The notes below the pieces were generated by a model. It had not been told where the DNA came from, did no database searches, and saw only the letters and a program-made list of their open reading frames with translations. Shown piece after piece: positions 23,318 to 63,562 of a stretch of DNA of 64,000 nt (position 1 is the stretch's first letter; each line of letters opens with the position of its first letter). The DNA comes from Pseudomonas syringae. GTDB lineage: Bacteria > Pseudomonadota > Gammaproteobacteria > Pseudomonadales > Pseudomonadaceae. The stretch is from assembly GCF_023278085.1 (NCBI RefSeq), contig NZ_CP066265.1, positions 2,014,501-2,078,500 of the forward strand, in the 5' to 3' direction. A program made the position numbers and the translations under genes.

Positions 23318-24079
23318 TCAGCCCGTTTGTAACTGCACGTGGCCGGCAAGGGTCTGATTCAACAGCTCGTTGCTGCAGGCAGCCACTGCACCTATCACCA
23401 GAATGGCGGGGCTTTTCAGCTCGAACGCCGCCGCGTCCTGCTGCATGGCATTCAGATTGCTGCGGCATTCACGTTGCCACGGCAACGAAGCATTCTCGAT
23501 CATCGCCACCGGCATCTCGCCGCTCATGCCTCCCGTCAGCAGGCTCTCGCGAATCTCTGCCAGCTTTGCCACGCCCATATACACCACCAGTGTCGTGCCG
23601 CCTTGCGCAAGCGCCTGCCAGTTGAGGCTGCTGTCGTCCTGAGTGTGAGCCGTGACCAGTGTTACGCCACGGCTGACGCCGCGCAGAGTCAGCGAAATGC
23701 CACATTGGGTTGCCCCGGCCAGGCCAGCAGTGATGCCATTGACCAGCTCCACCGCAACGCCGCGTTCCTGCAGCCATTGTGCCTCTTCGCCGGCACGGCC
23801 GAATATGCAGGGGTCGCCGCCTTTGAGGCGCACCACGCATTTGCCTTGACGGACGTAGCGCAGCATCAGGCGATGAATGAAGGCTTGTGGCGTAGAGCGG
23901 CAGCCGCCGCGCTTACCGACGGCGATGACTCGTGCAGCGGGGCAGTGTTCAAGCACTGTGGGGTTGACCAGATCGTCCATCAACACCACGTCGGCTTCAC
24001 GCAGGGCGCGCACCGCCTTGAGGGTCAACAATTCCGGGTCGCCGGGGCCTGCGCCTACCAACCAGACTTTTGCACTCAT
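23318..24079 (-). CDS. cobA: uroporphyrinogen-III C-methyltransferase (SUMT)
   Basis: 253 residues from ATG 24079, preceded by GAGGAATACAGC. The enzyme adds two SAM-derived methyl groups to uroporphyrinogen III to give precorrin-2, the precursor of siroheme and cobalamin. Motifs: KVWLVGAGPGDPELLTLKAVRAL (SAM-binding start), VRLKGGDPCIFGRAGEE, GVTLVTAH and TLVVYMG. It is the last gene of the nitrate-assimilation operon, 10 bp after the reductase gene, and would supply siroheme to an assimilatory nitrite reductase, whose gene is not in this window. It is a SUMT-only protein; CysG-type fusion domains are absent. Confidence 0.93.
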   Translation of the reverse strand: MSAKVWLVGAGPGDPELLTLKAVRALREADVVLMDDLVNPTVLEHCPAARVIAVGKRGGCRSTPQAFIHRLMLRYVRQGKCVVRLKGGDPCIFGRAGEEAQWLQERGVAVELVNGITAGLAGATQCGISLTLRGVSRGVTLVTAHTQDDSSLNWQALAQGGTTLVVYMGVAKLAEIRESLLTGGMSGEMPVAMIENASLPWQRECRSNLNAMQQDAAAFELKSPAILVIGAVAACSNELLNQTLAGHVQLQTG

Positions 24080-24089
24080 GCTGTATTCC

Positions 24090-26810
24090 TCATTCACTCA
24101 CCGCCACGGCATTGATCAGTCTTTTTATTTCCGGCACACAGGACCCGCACTGGGTCCCGCAGCCTAACCGGGTCTTTAGTTGATTCAGGTTCAGGCCCTG
24201 TTCGATACCGCTCATTACCGCGCTCTGGCTGACGTTCATGCAGTTGCACAGGGTCTTTTCCCGATGCTGTGCCGATTCCTTGCCGGGCTCGCTGCTCAAT
24301 GGGGCCAGCAGCCAGCGTCGTAGAGAGGCATCGACACGTTCTTCCTGCCATAGCGCTTGCAACCAGTGCCGCGCGACGGTCTCACCGGCCAGGCGGATAG
24401 CGGTAATGCGTCCGTTATCAATCCGTACCCGTTTGCCAATCGAGCGCGCCGGGTCGTCGTACGCCAGCACTGGCCCTTCATCAAGACCCAGCAGGCTGTC
24501 GATTTCGTGCAACAGCAACGGGTCGGGTGCTGCGAAGCTGGCGGCACTGATGATCAGTGCCGAGCGTTCACGACCGGTAAGGCTCATGCTCAGGTAATCA
24601 AACACGTCGCACAGGGGGCGCAATTTCTCCATGCGTTGCTGCACGTTACTCTCAATCAGGGCGAAGAACTGCCAAGGCAGTCGGGCTTTTTCGACCCTCA
24701 CCCCGGAATGCTTGAGCTCCGGCTGTTTCGAGACCGGATCAAACGCTGGCTGGGTCAGAACGTTCACGCCGCCCTTGAGGAAACGGTCGCCCCAGTGCAT
24801 AGGCAGGAACGCCTGGCCGGGCGCGATGTTGTCATCGCGGCTCACGGGTAAAAAAAGCTCGCCACGGCGGCTGATCAGGCGCACCACGTCGCCGGTTTGC
24901 AGGTCATGATGCTGCATTTCCTGTGTACCAAGGCTCAAAACCGCCTCGCTGACATGCCCGAACAGGCGGGCTGCGGTGCCGGTGCGGCTCATGCCGTGCC
25001 ATTGATCACGCAGCCGTCCGGTGTTAAGGGTGAGCGGGTATTCGCTGTCACGCAGCTCTCTGGCCGCGACATAGGGTTCGCATAGAAACTGCGCACGCCC
25101 GGAAACCGTCGGGAACACGCCGTCCGCGTACAGGCGTGCTGTACCTCCTGTTGCGCCAGCCGGAAACGGCCATTGTTGCGGGCCTTGTTGGTCAATGAGC
25201 GTGCGGTTGATGCCCGACATGTCCAGGTCGCGTCCAGCGGTGAGGCCCTTGAACTCGTCGAACAGCGCCTCGGGGGTCTGGAAATCAAACAACGCGTCAG
25301 CGTCCGGGCACAGGCGTTTTTGCAGGCGCTGAGCGAAATCCACGCTAATCGCCCAGTCGGGGCGCGCATCGCCGGGGGCTGCAATAGCCTTGCGTACATT
25401 AGAGATGCGTCGCTCCGAATTGGTCACTGTGCCGTCTTTTTCACCCCAACTGGCGGCGGGCAGCAACAGGTCGGCAAAGCGTGCGGTTTCGGTGGTCTTG
25501 AAAGCTTCCTGAAGCACCACGAACGGGCAGGTGTCCAGCGCTTGTCGGATTCTGTTCTGGTCGGGCAGTGATTGTGCCGGGTTGGTGCAGGCAATCCACA
25601 GTGCCTTGATTGTGCCGCTCTGCAATTGCTCGAACAGTTCGATAGCCGACAGGCCGGGGTTGGCCGGCAGGCTGTCGACGCCCCAGTAGTCGGCCACCTC
25701 GGCACGGTGTTCGGCATTGCCCGCGTCGCGATGGCCCGGCAGCAGGTTGGAGAGGCTGCCGGTTTCGCGTCCGCCCATGGCATTCGGCTGTCCGGTCAGC
25801 GAGAAAGGGCCTGCGCCCGGACGGCCGATCTGACCCGTGGCCAGGTGCAGATTGATCAGCGCGCTGTTCTTGGCGCTGCCCGCGCTGGATTGATTCAAGC
25901 CCATGCACCACAGCGACAGAACGCTGGGCGACTCGCCGATCCAGTGCGCGCAGGTGTGCAACTGTTGCAGCGTAATGCCGCAAAGTGTCGCCACGCGTTC
26001 TGGTGGATAATCGTCAGCCAGCGCTGCGAGTTCTTCATAGCCTTGGGTGTGGGCGGCGATGAAATCCAGGTCGACCTGCTTGTCGCGCATCAACAGATGC
26101 AACACACCATGGAACAGCGCCACGTCCGTCCCCGGCTGAATGGCCAGGTGCAGGTCCGCCAGCTCGCAGGTGTCGGTACGGCGCGGATCGATGACGATCA
26201 GCTTCATCTGCGGGCGACGATTTTTGGCTTCTTCCAGGCGACGGAACAGCACCGGATGCGCATAGGCCATGTTGCTGCCGACGATCATCACGCGGTCGCT
26301 CAGCGCGATGTCTTCGTAATTGCACGGCGGTGCGTCCGCCCCCGGGCTGCGCTTGTAACCGGCCACCGCCGACGACATGCACAGCCGCGAATTGCTGTCG
26401 ATATTGTTGGTGCCGACCAGCGCGCGAGCCAGTTTGTTGAACGCGTAGTAATCCTCGGTCAGCAGCTGGCCGGAGATGTAGAACGCCACGCTGTCCGGGC
26501 CATGCTCGCGAATGTTCTCGGCGAACACGTTGGCAGCATGCTCCAGCGCGGTATCCCAATCGGTAACGCTGCGCGCCAGTCCTTTGCTCAGGCGCAATTC
26601 CGGGTACAGCGCGCGGGCTTCGATGTCGCCCGTCAGGTGCAGGGTCGAGCCTTTGCTGCACAGTTTGCCGTAGTTGGCCGGGTGCGTCGGGTCGCCGCTG
26701 ACACCCAGGATTTTCTGCCCGTCGTGTTCGATCAGCACGCCGCATCCGACCCCGCAATAGCAGCAGGTAGAGGCCGTGACCTTTGGAGTGTGAATGGCCA
26801 GGCTGGTCAT
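24090..26810 (-). CDS. nasA: assimilatory nitrate reductase, large catalytic subunit
   Basis: 906 residues. The N-terminal CCYCGVGCGVLIEH binds a [4Fe-4S] cluster; the central body is a molybdopterin-guanine-dinucleotide oxidoreductase (GTNNIDSNSRLCMSSAVAGYKRSPGADAPPCNYEDI, FRRLEEAKNRRPQMKLIVIDPRRTDTCELADLHL); the MopB C-terminal domain follows. Residues ~850-900 form a BFD-like [2Fe-2S] domain (CNCMNVSQSAVMSGIEQGLNLNQLKTRLGCGTQCGSC). It reduces nitrate to nitrite in the cytoplasm. It overlaps the upstream FAD protein gene by 4 bp (ATGA). No Tat signal is present, as expected for the assimilatory type. Symbol follows Klebsiella usage; in P. aeruginosa the name nasA has been used for the transporter. 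Confidence 0.93.
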   Translation of the reverse strand: MTSLAIHTPKVTASTCCYCGVGCGVLIEHDGQKILGVSGDPTHPANYGKLCSKGSTLHLTGDIEARALYPELRLSKGLARSVTDWDTALEHAANVFAENIREHGPDSVAFYISGQLLTEDYYAFNKLARALVGTNNIDSNSRLCMSSAVAGYKRSPGADAPPCNYEDIALSDRVMIVGSNMAYAHPVLFRRLEEAKNRRPQMKLIVIDPRRTDTCELADLHLAIQPGTDVALFHGVLHLLMRDKQVDLDFIAAHTQGYEELAALADDYPPERVATLCGITLQQLHTCAHWIGESPSVLSLWCMGLNQSSAGSAKNSALINLHLATGQIGRPGAGPFSLTGQPNAMGGRETGSLSNLLPGHRDAGNAEHRAEVADYWGVDSLPANPGLSAIELFEQLQSGTIKALWIACTNPAQSLPDQNRIRQALDTCPFVVLQEAFKTTETARFADLLLPAASWGEKDGTVTNSERRISNVRKAIAAPGDARPDWAISVDFAQRLQKRLCPDADALFDFQTPEALFDEFKGLTAGRDLDMSGINRTLIDQQGPQQWPFPAGATGGTARLYADGVFPTVSGRAQFLCEPYVAARELRDSEYPLTLNTGRLRDQWHGMSRTGTAARLFGHVSEAVLSLGTQEMQHHDLQTGDVVRLISRRGELFLPVSRDDNIAPGQAFLPMHWGDRFLKGGVNVLTQPAFDPVSKQPELKHSGVRVEKARLPWQFFALIESNVQQRMEKLRPLCDVFDYLSMSLTGRERSALIISAASFAAPDPLLLHEIDSLLGLDEGPVLAYDDPARSIGKRVRIDNGRITAIRLAGETVARHWLQALWQEERVDASLRRWLLAPLSSEPGKESAQHREKTLCNCMNVSQSAVMSGIEQGLNLNQLKTRLGCGTQCGSCVPEIKRLINAVAVSE

Positions 26811-28036
26811 GCGCAGGCGACCTCGGCAGGGGCCGGTTCGCCGAACATCAGCTGGTTGCGGATTGCAGCAATGCCCTGGCCCTCGCGAATCTGCTGCAAA
26901 TACCAGGTGCCGTCTGCGGTGTCGCCGTACAGGCAGGCGCCGACCAGCACGTCGTTCTTGATCACCAGCTTCTTGTAGACCCCGCTGAGCGGGTCGGAAA
27001 GGGTGATGCTCTCGGTGCCTTCGCCACCGAGAAAGTCACCGGCAGAGAACAGGTCGATGCCGGTGACTTTCAGCTTGGTCGACGTGATGGAGCCGGAGTA
27101 GCGGGCAAAACCCAGTTGCGCGAGATGATTGGCGCAGACCCGCGCCTGCTCGAACAGCGGTGCAACCAGGCCGTAGGCGATGCCGCGATGGCTGACGCAT
27201 TCGCCGATGGCATAAATGCGCGGGTCATAGGTCTGCAAGGTGTCGTTGACCAGAATGCCGCGGTTGCAGGGCAGGCCTGCCGCTTCGGCCAGTTCGGTGT
27301 TGGGGCGGATGCCCGCAGCCATGACCACCAGGTCAGCGTCGATCACCTCGCCGTTCCTGAATTGCACTGCCCGTACCCGACCCTTGTCATCGCCCAGCAG
27401 GGCTTCGGTTTGTTCACTCAGACGAAAACGCAGGCTGCGCTGTTCCAGCGCCGCTTGCAGCATCAGGCCGCTGGTCTTGTCCAGCTGGCGTTCCAGCAAC
27501 GTCTGCCCGTTATGCACCACCGTGACCTGCATGCCGCGCAGGCTCAGGCCGTTGGCCGCTTCCAGCCCGAGCAGGCCACCGCCGATGACCACTGCACGCT
27601 TGTGGGTAGCGGCGATATCGATCATCTGCCGGGTATGGCCGATGTCGCGATAGCCGATCACGCCTTCCAGCGTGTTGCCGGGGATCGGCAGAATGAACGG
27701 GCGTGAGCCGGTGGCGATCAGCAGTCGGTCGTAGTGCGCCTCTGTGCCGTCGTCGGCGATGACCAGGCGTTGGCTGCGGTCGATCTTCACCACCCGACGG
27801 TTGAGCAATAACTGGATGTGGTTGGCGTCGTACCAGGCCAGATCGTTAAGCACGATGTCTGCGAAATCCTGTTCGCCCGCCAGCACCGGGGACAGCAGGA
27901 TGCGGTTGTAATTGGGGTGCGGTTCGGCACCGAAGACCGTGATGTCATACAGGTCTTCGCTCAATTTCAACAACTCTTCGAGGGTGCGCACGCCGGCCAT
28001 GCCGTTGCCGATCATCACCAGTTTGAGTTTTTTCAT
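26807..28036 (-). CDS. FAD/NAD(P)H oxidoreductase, NirB N-terminal-like, probable electron donor to nitrate reductase
   Basis: 409 residues from ATG 28036, preceded by GGAGGCAAA. It matches only the N-terminal half of NirB: FAD-binding VMIGNGMAGVRTLEELL, ATGSRPFILPIPG, NAD(P)-binding AVVIGGGLLGLEAANGLSLRG, second FAD motif IYAIGECVSHRG, and the small NirB-type domain (TKLKVTGIDLFSAGDF). Full NirB is about 800-850 residues and continues into [2Fe-2S] and siroheme/[4Fe-4S] sulfite-reductase domains; these are absent and there is no reading frame for them, because the stop overlaps the nitrate reductase start. It therefore cannot reduce nitrite and probably passes electrons to the reductase, like Klebsiella NasC. 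Annotation as nitrite reductase would be misleading. Confidence 0.88.
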   Translation of the reverse strand: MKKLKLVMIGNGMAGVRTLEELLKLSEDLYDITVFGAEPHPNYNRILLSPVLAGEQDFADIVLNDLAWYDANHIQLLLNRRVVKIDRSQRLVIADDGTEAHYDRLLIATGSRPFILPIPGNTLEGVIGYRDIGHTRQMIDIAATHKRAVVIGGGLLGLEAANGLSLRGMQVTVVHNGQTLLERQLDKTSGLMLQAALEQRSLRFRLSEQTEALLGDDKGRVRAVQFRNGEVIDADLVVMAAGIRPNTELAEAAGLPCNRGILVNDTLQTYDPRIYAIGECVSHRGIAYGLVAPLFEQARVCANHLAQLGFARYSGSITSTKLKVTGIDLFSAGDFLGGEGTESITLSDPLSGVYKKLVIKNDVLVGACLYGDTADGTWYLQQIREGQGIAAIRNQLMFGEPAPAEVACA

Positions 28037-28084
28037 TTTGCCTCCGAGTCGCCACACAGCGCGCCCGACACAGTGCGTGCAAAC

Positions 28085-28176
28085 AAAAAAAGGCGTCCCG
28101 TCAGTTACCTGACAGGGACGCCTTTGTCCGATCCCGTTATCTCGGGAGGCGCAGCCGTCATCGTTGAGGGCTGCGC
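28085..28176 (-). ncRNA. ANTAR-type double-hairpin antitermination leader of the nitrate reductase operon
   Basis: Read on the minus strand. Hairpin P1 (28176-28149) has arms GCGCAGCC/GGCTGCGC, continued past a C-C mismatch by TC/GA, closing a hexaloop AACGAT (A1, G4). Hairpin P2 (28129-28116) has stem GGAC/GTCC and hexaloop AAAGGC (A1, G4). An intrinsic terminator (28125-28085) has arms AGGCGTCCC/GGGACGCCT extended by GTCAG/CTGAC, followed by seven T. The 3' arm of P2 lies inside the 5' terminator arm, so the two structures exclude each other. ANTAR proteins bind two such hexaloops; NasT is encoded at 33440-34015. A small extra hairpin TCCCG/CGGGA lies between P1 and P2. Confidence 0.85.
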
Positions 28177-28200
28177 GTTATGAATCATCTGAAACATGTC

Positions 28201-28218
28201 ATGCAGCGCTTGTGCCAA
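28201..28218 (-). promoter_or_regulatory. sigma-54 promoter of the nitrate reductase operon
   Basis: Minus-strand TTGGCACAAGCGCTGCAT has the -24 TGGCAC and -12 GC elements with GG-N10-GC spacing. The predicted start, about 12 nt downstream, is just before hairpin P1 of the leader. Sigma-54 with NtrC is the usual control for nitrogen-limited expression; no convincing NtrC dyad was identified upstream. Confidence 0.75.
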
Positions 28219-28329
28219 CTCGCATTCGGCTGTGTGCCGGGGCAGAACATCAAGGGTGAAGCGTATTTCTGCACCGCCTTGAAGCGGGTCGCACAGAAGC
28301 GGGGCGGCAGCTTGTCGACAGGCTATTGA

Positions 28330-29998: not shown

Positions 29999-31210
29999 TC
30001 AGACCCGGGCCGCCGTCACGGCAGCCGAACCCCAGGTGGTTCTCCAGCGACGCTTGACGTTCAGCAGGCCGAACCAGGCCAGCACGGCCAGCCCCGCGAA
30101 CAGCCACAGGCCCAACTGGTAATCGCCGGTATTCTGTTTGATGCTGCCCAGACCGGCCGCCAGCAGAAAGCCGCCGATACCACCGGCCATGCCGATCAGC
30201 CCGGTCATGACGCCGATTTCCTTGCGGAAGCGCTGCGGCACCAACTGGAAGACTGCGCCGTTACCGGCACCCAGGCCGAGCATTGCCGCGACAAACAGCG
30301 CCAGGGCGGCCCACGAACTGGGCAGGTTGAAACCAACTGCTGCAATGCCGACTGCGGCCACCGCGTACATCACAGTCAATGTGCGGATCCCGCCAAAGCG
30401 GTCCGCCAGCGCGCCACCCAGAGGGCGCATCAGGCTGCCGCCGAATACGCAGGCTGCGGTGTAGTAACCGGCAGTGATCGGGCTCAGGCCGTATTGGTCG
30501 TTGAAGTAGCCGGGCAGGGCGCTGGCCAGACCGATGAACCCACCAAATGTCACGCTGTAGAAGAACATGAACCACCAGCTGTCCTTGTCGCCGAGGGCCT
30601 TGAGGTAGTCCGCCACAGACTTGGGCTTGCTGCGTTCCGGAGCGTTACGTGCCATCAGGCTGAAAGCGATCAGCGTCAGCACCAACGGGATGAGGGCCAG
30701 ACCAAACACATTGCCCCAGCCAAAACTGGCGGCCAGCACCGGGGCGATCAACGCAGCCAGCACGGTGCCGGAATTGCCCGCACCGGCGATGCCCATCGCT
30801 TTGCCCTGATGCTGTGGCGGATACCATTGCGACGCCAGCGGCAACGCAACGGCGAACGACGCACCGGCCATGCCGAGGAACAGGCCCAGCAGCAGCACCT
30901 GGCCGTAGGTGTGAATGCCCAGTTGCCAGGCCGCGAACAGCGCACCGATGACGATCACCTGGCCAATGATGCCAGCCGTCTTGGGCGACAACTGGTCGGC
31001 CAGCAGGCCCATGAAGAAACGCAGCACTGCGCCCGCCAGAATCGGCGTGGCCACCATCAGGCCGCGTTGCTGGGTGGTCAACTGCAGGTCGGTGGCGATC
31101 TGTACTGCCAGCGGGCCGAGCAGGTACCAGACCATGAAGCTCAGGTCGAAATACAGAAAGGCAGCGAACAGGGTCGGTTTATGGCCGGCCTTCCAGAAGC
31201 TTGTATCCAT
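29999..31210 (-). CDS. NarK/NasA-type nitrate/nitrite MFS transporter
   Basis: 403 residues from ATG 31210 (GAGGTG about 6 nt upstream; the in-frame GTG at 31216 is less likely). Twelve membrane helices are visible, with the nitrate-porter glycine signatures GAGNSGTVLAALIAPVLA (helix 5) and GLIGMAGGIGGFLLAAGLG (helix 11) and the MFS loop LADQLSPKTAG. It imports nitrate across the inner membrane for assimilation. Transcribed from a sigma-54 promoter through an ANTAR-controlled leader, and followed by the kinase/phosphatase gene. P. aeruginosa calls the equivalent gene nasA. Confidence 0.92.
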   Translation of the reverse strand: MDTSFWKAGHKPTLFAAFLYFDLSFMVWYLLGPLAVQIATDLQLTTQQRGLMVATPILAGAVLRFFMGLLADQLSPKTAGIIGQVIVIGALFAAWQLGIHTYGQVLLLGLFLGMAGASFAVALPLASQWYPPQHQGKAMGIAGAGNSGTVLAALIAPVLAASFGWGNVFGLALIPLVLTLIAFSLMARNAPERSKPKSVADYLKALGDKDSWWFMFFYSVTFGGFIGLASALPGYFNDQYGLSPITAGYYTAACVFGGSLMRPLGGALADRFGGIRTLTVMYAVAAVGIAAVGFNLPSSWAALALFVAAMLGLGAGNGAVFQLVPQRFRKEIGVMTGLIGMAGGIGGFLLAAGLGSIKQNTGDYQLGLWLFAGLAVLAWFGLLNVKRRWRTTWGSAAVTAARV

Positions 31211-31332
31211 TGGCACACCTCATCATCGGCTAGGGGGGGCAGTCGGGGCATGGCCACGACACGGTTTGTTCCAGACGTTGTGGCGGAGTGCTTCGGGCGA
31301 CTCCACCGGCCCCTTCGCCGGGGCCAAACGCC

Positions 31333-31416
31333 AAAAACGTCGCCTCTCCATCCACCGGAGCGGAAAGAGATGAGCGACGTCTTTGTCGTAATCGGTGGTA
31401 GCCGCCGTTGGCTACC
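31333..31416 (-). ncRNA. ANTAR-type double-hairpin antitermination leader of the nitrate transporter operon
   Basis: Read on the minus strand. P1 (31416-31397) is a perfect 7-bp stem GGTAGCC/GGCTACC with hexaloop AACGGC (A1, G4). P2 (31388-31375) is CGAC/GTCG with hexaloop AAAGAC (A1, G4). The terminator (31380-31333) has arms ACGTCGC/GCGACGT and a TTTTT run. P2's 3' arm overlaps the terminator's 5' arm. The design is the same as in the reductase leader, including AACG at the start of the P1 loop and AAAG at the start of the P2 loop. About 120 nt separate the terminator from the transporter start. Confidence 0.87.
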
Positions 31417-31430
31417 TGTGCAATTGCATT

Positions 31431-31447
31431 AGCAATAGACGGGCCAA
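31431..31447 (-). promoter_or_regulatory. sigma-54 promoter of the nitrate transporter operon
   Basis: Minus-strand TTGGCCCGTCTATTGCT matches TTGGCACG-N4-TTGCT at all but one of the fixed positions, with GG-N10-GC spacing. The expected start site (~31420) is about 4 nt before hairpin P1. Confidence 0.8.
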
Positions 31448-32135
31448 AGCAGGGGCAAGCGGTTTAGCGGCAAGCTGCAAGCGGGTCTGGGGGACTGTCG
31501 GGAGGTGTAGTTGACCGGGCCAATGACCTTGAAGCGGGCGCTGATCAGAAAGGACGCTGCAAAAAAGGGCGGGCCGCCGGCCCCGGAGCTTGTGCAGCTC
31601 ATGCCGGCTGCTGTCAGCCGGCTGATAATGAAAAAATAATGCAGCGGTTGTTGATATTTTATTAAGTTCAATATGCTGGATATTATATTTATGTGCCACC
31701 AGTTTTAATGTTGCGTACTGTCAATATGATGCTGTTTCGATGCTGCCATATGACGGTCTTAATATCGATGATCTATAAGTGTGAATATTTATTAATTAAC
31801 TATCCGGTGAGTCTTTTGGTACGTCAGTGCTGCAAATAGTTAATTTACTTTCTGTAGTATCTCTGACAGCATCCGTCCTGCCGACACCCACACGGCCCGT
31901 CGAATAGACGGTGATATTACTCTTCATCAGTGCGGCTTTATCTCAAGGTCGTCTGTCAATTCCGATAAGTGTTTACTTTGAAAGAAGTAATCGGCTACTC
32001 GCTCTTTTTTCGGGCTCCTGCTGCCTTAAATAAAGGGAAGCCCGATTTCACATGCACCTCGGCCATGCAACTTTTCGGCCGTGTTGTCTTCCTCTTCGCG
32101 CTGCTTTGAAGGGCGCCAATAAAGGATACATCATC
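31448..32135. other. long intergenic region between nitrate transporter and lscA, AT-rich in its right half
   Basis: No credible gene is seen. 31603-31622 is a perfect dyad GCCGGCTG-CTGT-CAGCCGGC. From about 31620 to 31990 the sequence is much richer in A/T than its surroundings, with runs such as TATTAATTAACT, which suggests acquired DNA. AAAGGA at 32121-32126 is the lscA ribosome binding site. I see no clear promoter for lscA. Confidence 0.5.
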
Positions 32136-33383
32136 ATGAGTAACATCAATTACGCACCCACTGTCTGGTCCCGTGCCGATGCGCTGAAGGTCAACGAAAA
32201 CGACCCCACCACCACGCAGCCACTGGTCAGCCCGGACTTTCCGGTCATGAGCGATACGGTATTCATCTGGGACACCATGCCGCTGCGCGAGCTGGACGGC
32301 ACGGTCGTTTCGGTCAACGGCTGGTCGGTCATCCTGACATTGACGGCTGACCGCCACCCTGATGATCCGCAGTACCTGGGTGCCAATGGCCGCTACGACA
32401 TCAAGCGCGACTGGGAAGACCGCCACGGCAGGGCGCGCATGTGCTACTGGTACTCGCGCACCGGCAAAGACTGGATCTTCGGTGGCCGAGTGATGGCCGA
32501 GGGCGTATCGCCGACGACACGAGAGTGGGCGGGCACACCGATCCTGTTGAACGACCAGGGCGATATCGATCTGTATTACACCTGCGTGACACCCGGTGCC
32601 TCGATTGCCAAAGTTCGCGGCCGCATCGTGACATCCGATAAGGGCGTAGAGTTGAAAGACTTTAACGACGTTAAAATTCTTTTTGAAGCCGACGGCACTT
32701 ATTATCAGACCGAAGCGCAAAACTCGACCTGGAACTTTCGCGACCCAAGTCCGTTCATTGACCCCAATGATGGCAAGTTGTACATGGTCTTTGAAGGTAA
32801 CGTCGCGGGCGAGCGTGGTTCACATACGGTTGGCGTCACGGAACTTGGCCCTGTGCCACCGGGCCACGAAGAAGTTGGCGGTGCCAGATTCCAGGTCGGC
32901 TGTATCGGCCTGGCGGTGGCGAAAGACCTGACGGGTGAAGAATGGGAAATACTTCCACCGCTGGTGACTGCGGTGGGCGTTAACGATCAGACCGAACGTC
33001 CGCACTATGTCTTCCAGGACGGTAAATATTATTTGTTCACCATCAGCCACAAGTTTACCTACGCCGATGGCGTGACCGGGCCGGATGGTGTCTATGGTTT
33101 TGTCGGCGAGCATCTGTTCGGTCCTTACCGGCCCATGAACGCCTCTGGTCTGGTGCTTGGCAATCCGCCCGAGCAGCCGTTCCAGACGTATTCCCACTGT
33201 GTCATGCCGAACGGACTGGTAACGTCGTTCATCGACAGCGTGCCCACCGAAGGCGAGGATTATCGTATCGGCGGGACCGAAGCGCCGACCGTGAGAATCC
33301 TGCTGAAAGGCGATCGCTCGTTCGTGCAGGAGGAATATGATTACGGCTACATTCCTGCCATGAAGGACGTGACGCTGAGCTGA
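32136..33383 (+). CDS. lscA: levansucrase, short N-terminal form
   Basis: 415 residues from ATG 32136, preceded by AAAGGATACATCATC. A glycoside hydrolase family 68 enzyme: it cleaves sucrose and transfers fructose to build levan. Catalytic residues are visible: nucleophile Asp46 (FIWDTMPL), transition-state stabiliser Asp in NFRDPSPF (~203), and general acid Glu in [11 protein letters not shown] (~287). From memory, active P. syringae LscB/LscC are 431 residues and carry ~16 extra N-terminal residues with a phage-derived promoter; the form here lacks that extension and starts MSNINYAP, like the chromosomal LscA that is reported to be poorly expressed. No signal peptide is present, as usual for this group. 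It is an insertion between the nitrate transporter and nasTS. Confidence 0.92.
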
Positions 33384-33439: not shown

Positions 33440-34015
33440 TCAGCCCAATAGCTCGCTCATCGCAATAATCTGTTCGGCCACCTGAATCAGCTTCTGCTGG
33501 CGACTCATCGCCTGGCGGCGCATCAGGGTGTAGGCCTCCTCCTCGTTGCACGCCTTCATCTTCATCAGCAGCCCCTTGGCCAGTTCGATGCGCTTGCGCT
33601 CGGCCAGTTGCTGATCGCGGGCATGCAGTTGCGCCCGCAGCGACTGATCGCTTTCGAAGCGGGCCATGGCCACGTCGAGAATCGGTTGCAGCCGTTGCGC
33701 CTGAATGCCTTCGACAATGTAAGCGCTGACCCCGGATTTGATCGCCTGACGCATCACTCCCGGATCGTGCTCGTCGGTAAACATCACAATCGGCCGCGGC
33801 TGGTCGCGGCTGACCAGCACCACCTGTTCCATCACGTCGCGGCCGGGGGATTCGGTGTCGATCAGGATGACATCCGGGCGCACCGCCTCAACGCGGGCGG
33901 GCAGGTCGATGATCAGCCCCGACTCATCGATCACCTCGAACCCGGCCTCGGTCAGTGCGGATTTGAGGCGACCGACTTTTCGGGGTGTGTCATTGATCAG
34001 CAGAATACGCAGCAT
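33440..34015 (-). CDS. nasT: ANTAR response-regulator-like antiterminator NasT
   Basis: 191 residues from ATG 34015, with GGAGG 9-13 nt upstream (start chosen for this; an upstream ATG at 34033 overlaps nasS). The N-terminal receiver-like domain (MLRILLINDTPRKVGRLKSAL, PDVILIDTESPGRDVMEQV) is followed by a C-terminal ANTAR RNA-binding domain (RKRIELAKGLLMKMKACNEEEAYTLMRRQAMSRQQKLIQVAEQII). NasT binds double-hairpin leader RNAs and prevents termination; NasS sequesters it when nitrate is absent. Two matching leaders are in this window. It lies 14 bp after nasS in the same operon. Confidence 0.95.
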   Translation of the reverse strand: MLRILLINDTPRKVGRLKSALTEAGFEVIDESGLIIDLPARVEAVRPDVILIDTESPGRDVMEQVVLVSRDQPRPIVMFTDEHDPGVMRQAIKSGVSAYIVEGIQAQRLQPILDVAMARFESDQSLRAQLHARDQQLAERKRIELAKGLLMKMKACNEEEAYTLMRRQAMSRQQKLIQVAEQIIAMSELLG

Positions 34016-34029
34016 GCTCACGTCCTCCG

Positions 34030-35241
34030 TCAACGACTGGCCAGTGCAGGCGCGGGATCGGCCAGCGAGTGAAGTTTGAAGCTGCGTGCATAGCCAGCCG
34101 GATCACTGCCATCCCAGACCTTGCCGTCGATCAGCTGACTGCTGCGCAGGTGGGCAGCCGGAACACTGATGCCCAGCGCGTCGGCTGCCTGACGGTACAG
34201 GTCCAGTTGCTGGACGCGGCTGGCGACTGCCAGGTAGTCCGGGTCTTCGCGCAACAGCCCCCAGCGTCGGAACTGGGTCATGAACCACATGCCATCGGAC
34301 AGCCACGGGTAATTGACCTGGCCCTGATTGTGGAACCGGACCGCATGCGGGTCCTGCCAGTGGTTGCCAAGCCCGTCACTGTAATGGCCGAGCAGGCGCG
34401 GTTCGATGCAGTCCAGCGGCGCGTCCAGATACTCTGTGCCGCTGAGCAATTGCGCCGTGCTGCACAGGTTGTGCGGGTTCTGCTCGATGAAGCGGCTGGC
34501 TTCAAGTACCGCCATGATCAGCGCTCTGGCGGTATTGGGGTTCTGCTCGACGAATTCGCGCGTGCAGCCGAGCACCTTGCCTGGGTGGTCGGGCCAGATC
34601 GCCTGGCTGGTGGCCATGGTGAAACCCAGCTGCTGCTGTACTGCGCTGGCACCCCACGGCTCACCGACACAGAACCCGTCGATGCGCCCGGCTTGCAGGT
34701 GCTGCGCCATCTGGGTGGGCGGCACCACCACACTGTTCACATCGTCGAGCGGATGAATGCCCTGGCTGGCGAGCCAGTAATACAGCCACATGGCGTGATT
34801 GCCGGTGGGAAAAGTCTGCGCGAAGGTCAGTTGCGAACCGTTTTGGTGCGCGCGTTTGTCCAGTGCCTCAGGCGTGATCACGCCCGCTTGCTGCAATTCG
34901 CTGGACAGGTTGATGCACTGACCGTTCTGATTGAGGCCCATCAGGATCGCCATGTCGGTCGCCGGGCCGCCGCTGATGCCCAGTTCCACGGCGTAGATCA
35001 GGCCATACAGGCTGTGTGCTGCGTGCAGCTGCCCGCTGACCAGCCTGTCGCGCAGCCCGGCCCATGAGGTCTGGCGCTTGAGGTTGAGGCTCAGCCCGTA
35101 AGGCTGGGCAAAGCCCTGCGTCGCGGCGACCACGAGCGGCGCGCAGTCAGTCAACGCCATGAAGCCGACGTCCAGGCTGTTGATTTCCGGCGCGTCGCTG
35201 CCGGCTACCCAGTCCAGGGCGTTGCTGGTTGGTTCAGTCAT
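34030..35241 (-). CDS. nasS: nitrate/nitrite-sensing NasS (NrtA-like binding protein)
   Basis: 403 residues from ATG 35241. It belongs to the NrtA/CmpA periplasmic-binding-protein fold but has no signal peptide, so it acts in the cytoplasm. Features: INSLDVGFMALTDCAPLVVAATQGFAQPYGLSL, SWAGLRDRLVSGQLHAAHSLYGLIYAVELG, and a C-terminal YPWLSDGMWFMTQFRRWGLL typical of the nitrate-binding subfamily. NasS holds NasT inactive until nitrate or nitrite binds. No ABC permease or ATPase genes are nearby, which supports a sensor and not a transporter role. Confidence 0.93.
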   Translation of the reverse strand: MTEPTSNALDWVAGSDAPEINSLDVGFMALTDCAPLVVAATQGFAQPYGLSLNLKRQTSWAGLRDRLVSGQLHAAHSLYGLIYAVELGISGGPATDMAILMGLNQNGQCINLSSELQQAGVITPEALDKRAHQNGSQLTFAQTFPTGNHAMWLYYWLASQGIHPLDDVNSVVVPPTQMAQHLQAGRIDGFCVGEPWGASAVQQQLGFTMATSQAIWPDHPGKVLGCTREFVEQNPNTARALIMAVLEASRFIEQNPHNLCSTAQLLSGTEYLDAPLDCIEPRLLGHYSDGLGNHWQDPHAVRFHNQGQVNYPWLSDGMWFMTQFRRWGLLREDPDYLAVASRVQQLDLYRQAADALGISVPAAHLRSSQLIDGKVWDGSDPAGYARSFKLHSLADPAPALASR

Positions 35242-35488
35242 AGCGAGCACTTCATAAAAAGCCCATCCAGAAAAAAGGCGCCGTTCGACCCGATGCCAGT
35301 GCAAGGGGCTGAAGCGACGCCATTGTCCATGCACGGTTCCTTCGTTGGAGTACGTGCCCGATAACCGATCCAAGCAAGGCATATGCCAGCGTCATGTGGC
35401 AGGAAGTTTATCGCGCACCTCGCTTGAGCCGCCCGCACACGGCTATAATCGCCACCCTGAATTCAGCTGCTCACGAGCCCATCCCGCC

Positions 35489-62416: not shown

Positions 62417-63562
62417 GCTTTTCGATCACGGTGGCACTGACGACGCAGAGTGCGACGTAAGTGACGGCTGAGTCCTGACACTGATCCGGGGGTAGCCTGG
62501 CAGGACGCCAGGCAAGCCGCACCGGGCCATGGATGGCCCGTTGCGGCGACCCCCGGATCAGTGTCAGGACGAAGGAACCCGACGAAGTCGGGCCGGAAAC
62601 GGAGCCAGGGGGTTTGGTTACTTTGGCCCCATCAAAGTAACTCGCCGAGGGGCGAAAAGGTGACCTGAGTCGAACCTCAATCTACCTGACATCACAGAAC
62701 CGCCGTGTGACGCGGAGCGTCACGAACTGCATCCCCACGCGGGGCGCTCATCGTTATACACAAGTCCAACCGACTCTCGTGCATTGCGCCATGCCTCGCC
62801 CGTTGCGACTGCACATAGAAGCGCTTTTTTATCGCGATGGCACTGGCGACGCAGAGTGCGACGTAAGTGACGGCTGAGTCCTGGCGCTGATCCGGGGGTA
62901 GCCTGGCAGGACGCCAGGCTAGCCGCACCGGGCCATGGATGGCCCGTTGCGGCGACCCCCGGATCAGGGTCAGGACGAAGGAACCCGACGAAGTCGGGCC
63001 GGAAACGGAGCCAGGGGGTTTGGTTACTTTGGCCCATCAAAGTAACTCGCCGAGGGGCGAAAAGGTGACCTGAGTCGAACCTCAATCTACCTGACATCAC
63101 AGAACCGCTGTGTGACGCGGAGCGTCACGAACTGCATCCCTACGCGGGGCGCTCATCGTTATACACAAGTCCAATCGACTCTCGTGCATTGCGCCATGCC
63201 TCGCCCGTTGCGACTGCACATAGAAGCGCTTTTTTATCGCGATGGCACTGGCGACGCAGAGTGCGACGTAAGTGACGGCTGAGTCCTGGCGCTGATCCGG
63301 GGGTAGCCTGGCAGGACGCCAGGCTAGCCGCACCGGGCCATGGATGGCCCGTTGCGGCGACCCCCGGATCAGAGTCAGGACGAAGGAACCCGACGAAGTC
63401 GGGCCGGAAATGGAGCCAGGGGGTTTGGTTACTTTGGCCCCATCAAAGTAACTCGCCGAGGGGCGAAAAGGTGAACTGAGTCGAACCTCAACCTACCTGA
63501 CATCACAGAACCGCTGTGTGACGCGGAGCGTCACGAAATGCATCCCCACGCGGAGCGTGGGG
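62417..63562. repeat. ~405-bp structured unit in almost three tandem copies
   Basis: Copies begin at about 62417, 62823 and 63229; shared landmarks are spaced 406 and 405 bp apart. The third copy is cut at about 63562. Each unit contains a multi-branched dyad: outer arms GACACTGATCCGGGGGT/ACCCCCGGATCAGTGTC (17 bp, perfect in copy 1), enclosing GCCTGGC/GCCAGGC and GCCGCA/TGCGGC around GGGCCAT/ATGGCCC; then CCCGAC/GTCGGG, then GTTACTTTG/CAAAGTAAC, then the REP hairpin GTGACGC/GCGTCAC (62707, 63113, 63518). The block ends with CCCCACGC/GCGTGGGG. The apparent short reading frames repeat exactly with the unit and are not genes. Confidence 0.9.

Follow-up and report, generated by a model that had tools for sequence, protein, structure and literature searches.

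A sigma-54 type promoter joined to a predicted NasT-read antiterminator in three leaders of a Pseudomonas syringae nitrate assimilation locus

It is very probable that the nitrate transporter gene in this stretch of Pseudomonas syringae DNA (64,000 nucleotides, referred to here as the window) lies under a two-input leader, that the same device precedes the reductase operon (the P11/NalA leader) and nasST, and that the three leaders form one regulon, probably with positive feedback. The three leaders of this design, P11, narK and nasST, lie within 7.3 kb of the window. By analogy with NalA and other systems, the narK leader would combine a nitrogen-limitation signal with a nitrate signal. Under nitrogen limitation, NtrC and sigma-54 would start the transcript. 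Without nitrate, NasS would hold NasT, the terminator would form and the transcript would stop; with nitrate, NasS would release NasT, which would bind the P1 and P2 loops and, by holding P2, block the terminator so that the transporter is transcribed. Each leader would be an AND gate of nitrogen limitation and nitrate, and at the nasST leader NasT would raise its own expression, a positive feedback that follows a leaky supply.

The narK leader occupies 31447-31333 on the minus strand. A preliminary description of this DNA had placed here a -24/-12 promoter, two hairpins (P1 and P2) and a terminator overlapping P2, and re-reading the minus-strand letters recovered each of these as claimed. The promoter motif TGGCCCGTCTATTGCT (31431-31446) has GG at 31445-31444 and GC at 31433-31432. 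The sigma-54 consensus consists of GG and GC 10 apart within a TGGC / TTGC context, and both the spacing of 10 and the TGGC and TTGC context are present. Sigma-54 promoter elements end about 12 nt before the start, and the transcript would begin near 31420, about 4 nt before P1. P1 is a 7-bp hairpin (GGTAGCC-AACGGC-GGCTACC, 31397-31416) with the hexaloop AACGGC at 31409-31404, and P2 is a 4-bp hairpin (CGAC-AAAGAC-GTCG, 31375-31388) with the hexaloop AAAGAC at 31384-31379. Both loops are closed by C-G and, as had been described, carry A1 and G4; the loop-to-loop distance is 19 nt. The intrinsic terminator (31333-31381) is made up of a hairpin at 31381-31336 and a U-run, TTTTT, at 31337-31333. 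Its 5' arm consists of the end of the P2 loop and the P2 3' arm, so that P2 and the terminator are mutually exclusive. When growing transcripts were folded, P2 appeared first and the terminator took over at about 86 nt; P2 forms before the terminator is complete, which would give NasT an interval in which to act. The leader is followed by a gene (29999-31216, minus strand, likely ATG at 31210) that encodes a NarK-type nitrate/nitrite MFS transporter that scores 305.9 bits against NCBIfam TIGR00886, slightly below the cut-off of 311.7. A second GC-rich hairpin, GGCCCCGGCGAAGGGGCC, lies at 31325-31308 (minus strand) between the U-run and the transporter start, and similar letters are found in many relatives.

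The preliminary description presented the element as one read from sequence. Its anatomy stands, and its identity can be refined: the element already has an Rfam entry, and the locus holds two more leaders of this kind. A covariance-model search with Rfam cmscan identified the element as RF03032, narK RNA (31374-31445, minus strand; whole model, 1-72 of 72), at 77 bits against a cut-off of 43.2 (E = 1e-12). The narK RNA reportedly stems from Weinberg 2017. Model positions 1-14 (GGC...TTGC) are promoter sequence that lies upstream of the predicted transcript start, so the RF03032 "RNA" family contains a promoter and mixes two kinds of signal. We found no mention of "narK RNA" or RF03032 in the open-licence literature, and no paper joining narK, ANTAR and Rfam among the open-licence titles and abstract starts listed.

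We compared the layout with chance expectation. The combination of TGGC-N7-TTGC with a pair of A1/G4 hexaloop hairpins, each C-closed and with a stem of 4 bp or more, was found at one site in the 64 kb and at none in 60 dinucleotide shuffles; the P11 and nasST leaders, whose stems or promoter differ, escape this strict scan. TGGC-N7-TTGC alone was not above chance, with 8 sites in the 64-kb window against 5.3 in shuffles. The weight of the promoter motif therefore comes from its conservation: GG-N10-GC is present in 93/93 RF03032 elements examined, all chosen with a model that includes those positions. The NtrC consensus is GCACC-N7-GGTGC. No NtrC site was recognised upstream of the narK leader, where the best match in the window reached 7/10, the same as in shuffles; matches of at least 8/10 were found in 29/92 upstream regions and in 85/460 shuffles.

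To place the leader in its genus, 149 Pseudomonas genomes were searched with RF03032, which matched in 129 of them (125 over the cut-off). We examined 93 elements over the cut-off, namely that of the window, the 30 best and 62 weaker or second copies, with middle-scoring rows left out. The preliminary description had named loss of loop positions A1/G4 or of the pairing between P2 and the terminator in close homologues as a refuting condition; in this comparison both are kept, with one exception in the P1 loop. A stem-only search recovered a P1 loop with A1/G4 in 84/93 elements; eight of the remaining nine have an A1/G4 loop with one stem mismatch, and in the single exception (L110, in genome G068) A1 is changed to G. 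P2 with A1/G4 was found in 93/93 elements by a search pattern that required A1/G4. As the corrected hairpin parse of the 93 elements required G4, A or G at position 1 and C-G closing, the loop counts are partly by construction, and the promoter-anchored test of the nasST loops (below) is less biased. The P2 3' arm is at least 3/4 paired within a terminator in 93/93 elements and is locked at the terminator base in 85/93, compared with 103/930 when the middle was shuffled. Loop-to-loop distances range from 16 to 25 nt with a mode of 18, and 72/93 are 17-18 nt. The gene behind the element is a transporter in 65 cases and a molybdopterin nitrate reductase in 28, the latter being a second type, about 40% identical to that of the window.

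Covariation was assessed in 52 sequences, comprising narK and nasST leaders. Six pairs, all in P1, changed on both sides, which is not above shuffles (5.4). The remaining measures, which kinship inflates in both the narK and nasST sets, exceeded shuffles: in 71 P1/P2 cells both sides had changed (13.7 in shuffles), and the covariation score was 0.364 (0.130 shuffled), with zero slide beating all slides. P2 pairs are almost invariant in narK and nasST leaders, which is expected because the P2 bases have two partners and a protein, and covariation speaks neither for nor against P2.

NasT probably reads the narK leader, as judged from co-occurrence and conserved contact residues. In the window, nasT (33440-34033, minus strand) encodes a receiver and ANTAR antiterminator by domain match, and nasS (34030-35241, minus strand, start predicted) encodes an NMT1-like sensor protein; sensor and receiver-ANTAR protein adjoin each other upstream, NasT being 2 kb from the narK leader. 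NasT matches (E up to 1e-30) were found in 127/149 genomes, two of the 127 having an in-frame stop. Both narK RNA and NasT are present in 126 genomes, neither in 19, the RNA only in three and NasT only in one (Fisher p = 6e-20, uncorrected for kinship). In the genome with NasT only (G041), narK-like matches below the cut-off flank nasT on both sides. Two of the RNA-only genomes encode ANTAR proteins other than NasT: G043, whose narK element falls short of the cut-off at 31.6 bits, and G068. In the third, G086 (99% complete, 90 contigs), narK RNA is present and no ANTAR protein was found; its element precedes a nitrate reductase gene that reads as cut short at about 115 residues, and with this truncated target it looks like a remnant. 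An alignment of NasT with EutV (6ww6) showed that the equivalents of Arg142, Lys143, Lys149, Glu160, Tyr164, Arg168 and Met172 are kept whereas Lys147, Asn173, Arg175 and Arg177 differ, with residues numbered as in excerpts of PMC8934654, taken as two less than in the 6ww6 chain. According to the same excerpts, Arg142, Lys149, Glu160 and Tyr164 form the EutV pocket for G4, with Tyr164 stacking on G4.

The reductase operon of the window is headed by Rfam RF00625, P11 RNA, a NalA type leader (28092-28229, minus strand), with a promoter motif at 28217-28203, P1 loop AACGAT at 28165-28160, P2 loop AAAGGC at 28125-28120 and a terminator. Its P2 overlaps its terminator and its promoter is of the same type as that of the narK leader. 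We take P11 and NalA to be one RNA, as locus and layout agree. Between P1 and P2 lies an extra G-C closed middle hairpin with loop AGATAA (28142-28137, minus strand). The operon (24090-28057, minus strand) consists of a NirB-type FAD reductase (26807-28057) and an assimilatory-type nitrate reductase (24090-26810), and is followed by a TP methylase gene (23318-24097, minus strand, domain match). The 416-aa product of 26807-28057 matches only the FAD half of NirB, and no sirohaem reductase domain was seen in the three genes of the P11-led operon. P11 matched in 99/149 genomes, 83 of them over the cut-off. Four of the 99 have no NasT match: G001, G018 and G147, which have other ANTAR proteins, and G133 (88% complete), where no ANTAR match of any kind was found. 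A parse with a pattern requiring AACG and GACAAAGGCG covered 30 P11 leaders, namely that of the window and those of the 30 best-scoring loci except L147. The loop distance is 34-35 nt in these 30 leaders, and the middle loop has A1/G4 in 29/30; the sole exception is the window, whose AGATAA is without G at position 4.

The third leader was found through the other sigma-54 motif on the minus strand, at 35388 before nasS. The promoter motif TGGCATATGCCTTGC (35374-35388) reads TGGCA-N6-TTGC and is followed by a leader (35271-35355, minus strand) with P1 loop AACGAA at 35346-35341, P2 loop AATGGC at 35324-35319 and a terminator T-run, TTTTTT, at 35276-35271. P1 is TCC-AACGAA-GGA with an outer stem and P2 is GAC-AATGGC-GTC. 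The stretch 35388-35271 has no Rfam match, including to RF03032 and RF00625. We compared it across 80 Pseudomonas loci, kept as those with the closest NasT proteins (92-97% identity), the nearest of which presumably belong to the P. syringae group. TGGCA-N6-TTGC is at the promoter place in 80/80 loci. A motif search requiring A1/G4 in both loops found the full leader set before nasS in 73/80, and with the promoter as the only anchor 71/80 have a T-run and carry A1 and G4 in each of the two loops; in this promoter-anchored comparison A1/G4 are kept while other loop positions vary more. The same motif search returned 201 sets in the 80 loci, which precede a transporter (76), nasS (73), a NirB-type reductase (51) and a cobA-type gene (1), the last being a P11-type set for which the cobA-type gene is the first homologue found behind it. 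T-GG-N10-GC lies upstream of 201/201 sets, and the other strand, searched over the same 1.11 Mb, holds no motif set. Among 53 distinct nasST leaders, 104 P1 cells covary (44.4 shuffled) and the score is 0.300 (0.125 shuffled) with its peak at zero slide; changed pairs (7 against 7.0) and further pair types (24 against 24.0) are not above shuffles. The presence of this leader before nasST in 73/80 loci, with a covarying P1, suggests that NasT probably antiterminates its own operon and so exerts positive feedback. Among the open-licence titles and abstract starts listed we found no such feedback at nasST, the key primary papers being outside that scope.

The nasST motif search finds no set in seven of the 80 loci, where self-control would thus be absent. 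In L287 (P. psychrophila) and L313 (P. fragi) the promoter runs to the start codon and leaves no room for a switch. The P1 closing pair is lost in L252 and L304, the latter also being without a T-run, and part of one or both hairpins differs in L258, L264 and L310. At the nasST place in 20 further relatives, the set is present in 12 (with A at position 4 of the P1 loop in one of them, L167) and absent from eight, several of which have the promoter alone. Overall, we consider it likely that in most sampled loci the product of nasST controls this operon by way of an ANTAR antiterminator whose transcript starts at a sigma-54 promoter, that one AND gate with positive feedback serves sensor, transporter and reductase, and that lineages without the switch kept the promoter.

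We also built a model of our own, R1, which includes two leaders of the window, so that its scores on those two are not independent. Among 99 genomes, at least 40 R1 matches lie 1.26-1.51 kb before nasT. The terminator region of the nasST leader in locus L156 (genome G094) seems to contain an insertion, and the R1 match there lies further upstream than in the other loci. A class-wide search gave R1 matches in 58/321 genomes. We inspected 29 loci outside the window's genome: 14 precede a nas, nrt or narK homologue (including L213 and L221), and L207 and L226 are leader-like matches with no homologue found behind them. The remaining inspected loci are not leader-like, and four of them resemble sigma-54 activator genes by reading of the letters. 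We therefore claim no class-wide frequency. In the class-level leaders L209, L211, L215, L216 and L218, as we read them, three hexaloops in a row stand before transporter or NasS-like genes, and multi-loop leaders may recur.

Two further observations concern the neighbourhood and the window. A gene on the opposite strand (32052-33383, plus strand) lies between nasT and the transporter; it has no NCBIfam family and we take it to be a levansucrase. Locus L094 has the same gene at this place, and seven of the 80 loci also have 2.6-3.0 kb between the narK-type leader and the nasT start. Elsewhere in the window, 62417-63527 (plus strand) holds three copies of a unit repeating every 405-406 bp, with copies 1 and 3 being 96% alike over 300 nt, and three TwoAYGGAY RNA (RF01731) matches.

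The mechanism proposed here is already known from NalA of nirBD, and the narK leader is already in Rfam. For NalA, excerpts of a review (PMC12830290) describe a start by NtrC and sigma-54 and elongation permitted by NasT, and dissociation of NasS and NasT by nitrate is described in part of PMC3795266. The promoter half of the model agrees with the reduced expression of nasS and nasT when ntrC is mutated in P. stutzeri (excerpt of PMC8443478) and with predicted sigma-54 promoters at NasT-type genes (excerpt of PMC12316311). Bradyrhizobium narK has a predicted NasT hairpin upstream, yet according to an excerpt of PMC6759348 it was not NasT-dependent and rose in a nasT mutant.

Three other explanations were weighed. 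If only the terminator and promoter mattered, the hexaloop hairpins would be part of a constitutive attenuator or of an mRNA end yielding a small RNA. In Rfam, P11 is classed as a gene (sRNA) and not as a cis element, and terminated leaders would be short RNAs. However, P1 covaries although it lies outside the terminator, and it retains A1/G4 in a loop whose remaining positions are more variable; the RNA and NasT go together across genomes; and L287 and L313 are without hairpins and terminator together while the promoter motif stays; we regard this explanation as highly improbable. We see hardly more reason to believe that an ANTAR protein other than NasT reads the narK leader. The genome encodes one more ANTAR protein, preceded by a substrate-binding-like protein as in AmiC-AmiR, and two of the three narK-positive genomes without a NasT match have other ANTAR proteins, some in frames of more than 500 aa and NasR-like by length only. 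Against this, NasT is present in 126/129 narK-positive genomes, and in the 80 loci the full motif set is confined to the leaders of nasS, the transporter and the reductase operon.

The nasST leader may have the shape of a switch and another role, such as supplying NasS and NasT constantly and not in response to nitrate, which we judge unlikely but worth serious consideration. Both proteins are needed before nitrate arrives, so that a closed switch would need leaky read-through, and some lineages keep the promoter only. In Paracoccus, nasTS is controlled by NtrBC and shows low expression with every nitrogen source tested (excerpt of PMC5424462). The loops, spacing (mostly 16-17 nt) and terminator overlap of the nasST leader nevertheless resemble those of the narK leader, which argues for the nitrate-driven reading.

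Under the regulon proposed here, the Rfam label "narK RNA, Cis-reg" gains a likely reader protein and mechanism, and narK and P11, which are separate Rfam families, would be joined in one NasT regulon with the nasST leader as a third, unlisted member. Should NasT act on its own expression in this way, induction by nitrate is expected to be steep and perhaps all-or-none. Lineages with the promoter and without the nasST switch would then offer a natural comparison of feedback and feedback-free control. These questions are relevant to nitrate use in biotechnology strains; nasT has been deleted in P. putida in a biotechnology context (excerpt of PMC7261876).

The leaders described here can be compared with known systems from the available excerpts of the papers cited. 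ANTAR-target RNAs consist of two hexaloop hairpins with A1/G4 and a C-G closing pair (PMC7496416, PMC3369931). The narK leader of the window has the hexaloops, the mutual exclusion of P2 and terminator and a constrained loop distance, and is a full-length member of RF03032; the nasST leader has the same layout of promoter motif, two C-G closed A1/G4 hexaloops and terminator overlap. In Paracoccus denitrificans, the nasA leader likewise has NasT-dependent hairpins before nas genes, and nasTS is under NtrBC (PMC5424462); unlike in the window, the nasTS promoter carries an NtrC site, and the excerpt of that paper describes no switch before nasTS. The eutP leader of Enterococcus and nasF leader of Klebsiella resemble the window in their C-G closed A1/G4 hexaloops and in a P2 that overlaps the terminator, and the eutP positions A29/G32 and A53/G56 give a loop distance of 18 (PMC3369931). 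The window differs from both in its sigma-54 type promoter and in its probable reader, which would be NasT released by NasS and not EutV or NasR. NalA (PMC12830290, PMC3973561) and the window leaders are alike in sigma-54 promoter, A1/G4 hexaloops, terminator overlap and the predicted use of NasT. Within this design, P11 stands apart by a third hairpin, closed by G-C, that separates P1 from P2, and by a loop distance of 34-35 nt, whereas the narK and nasST leaders have two hairpins and loop distances of mostly 16-19 nt.
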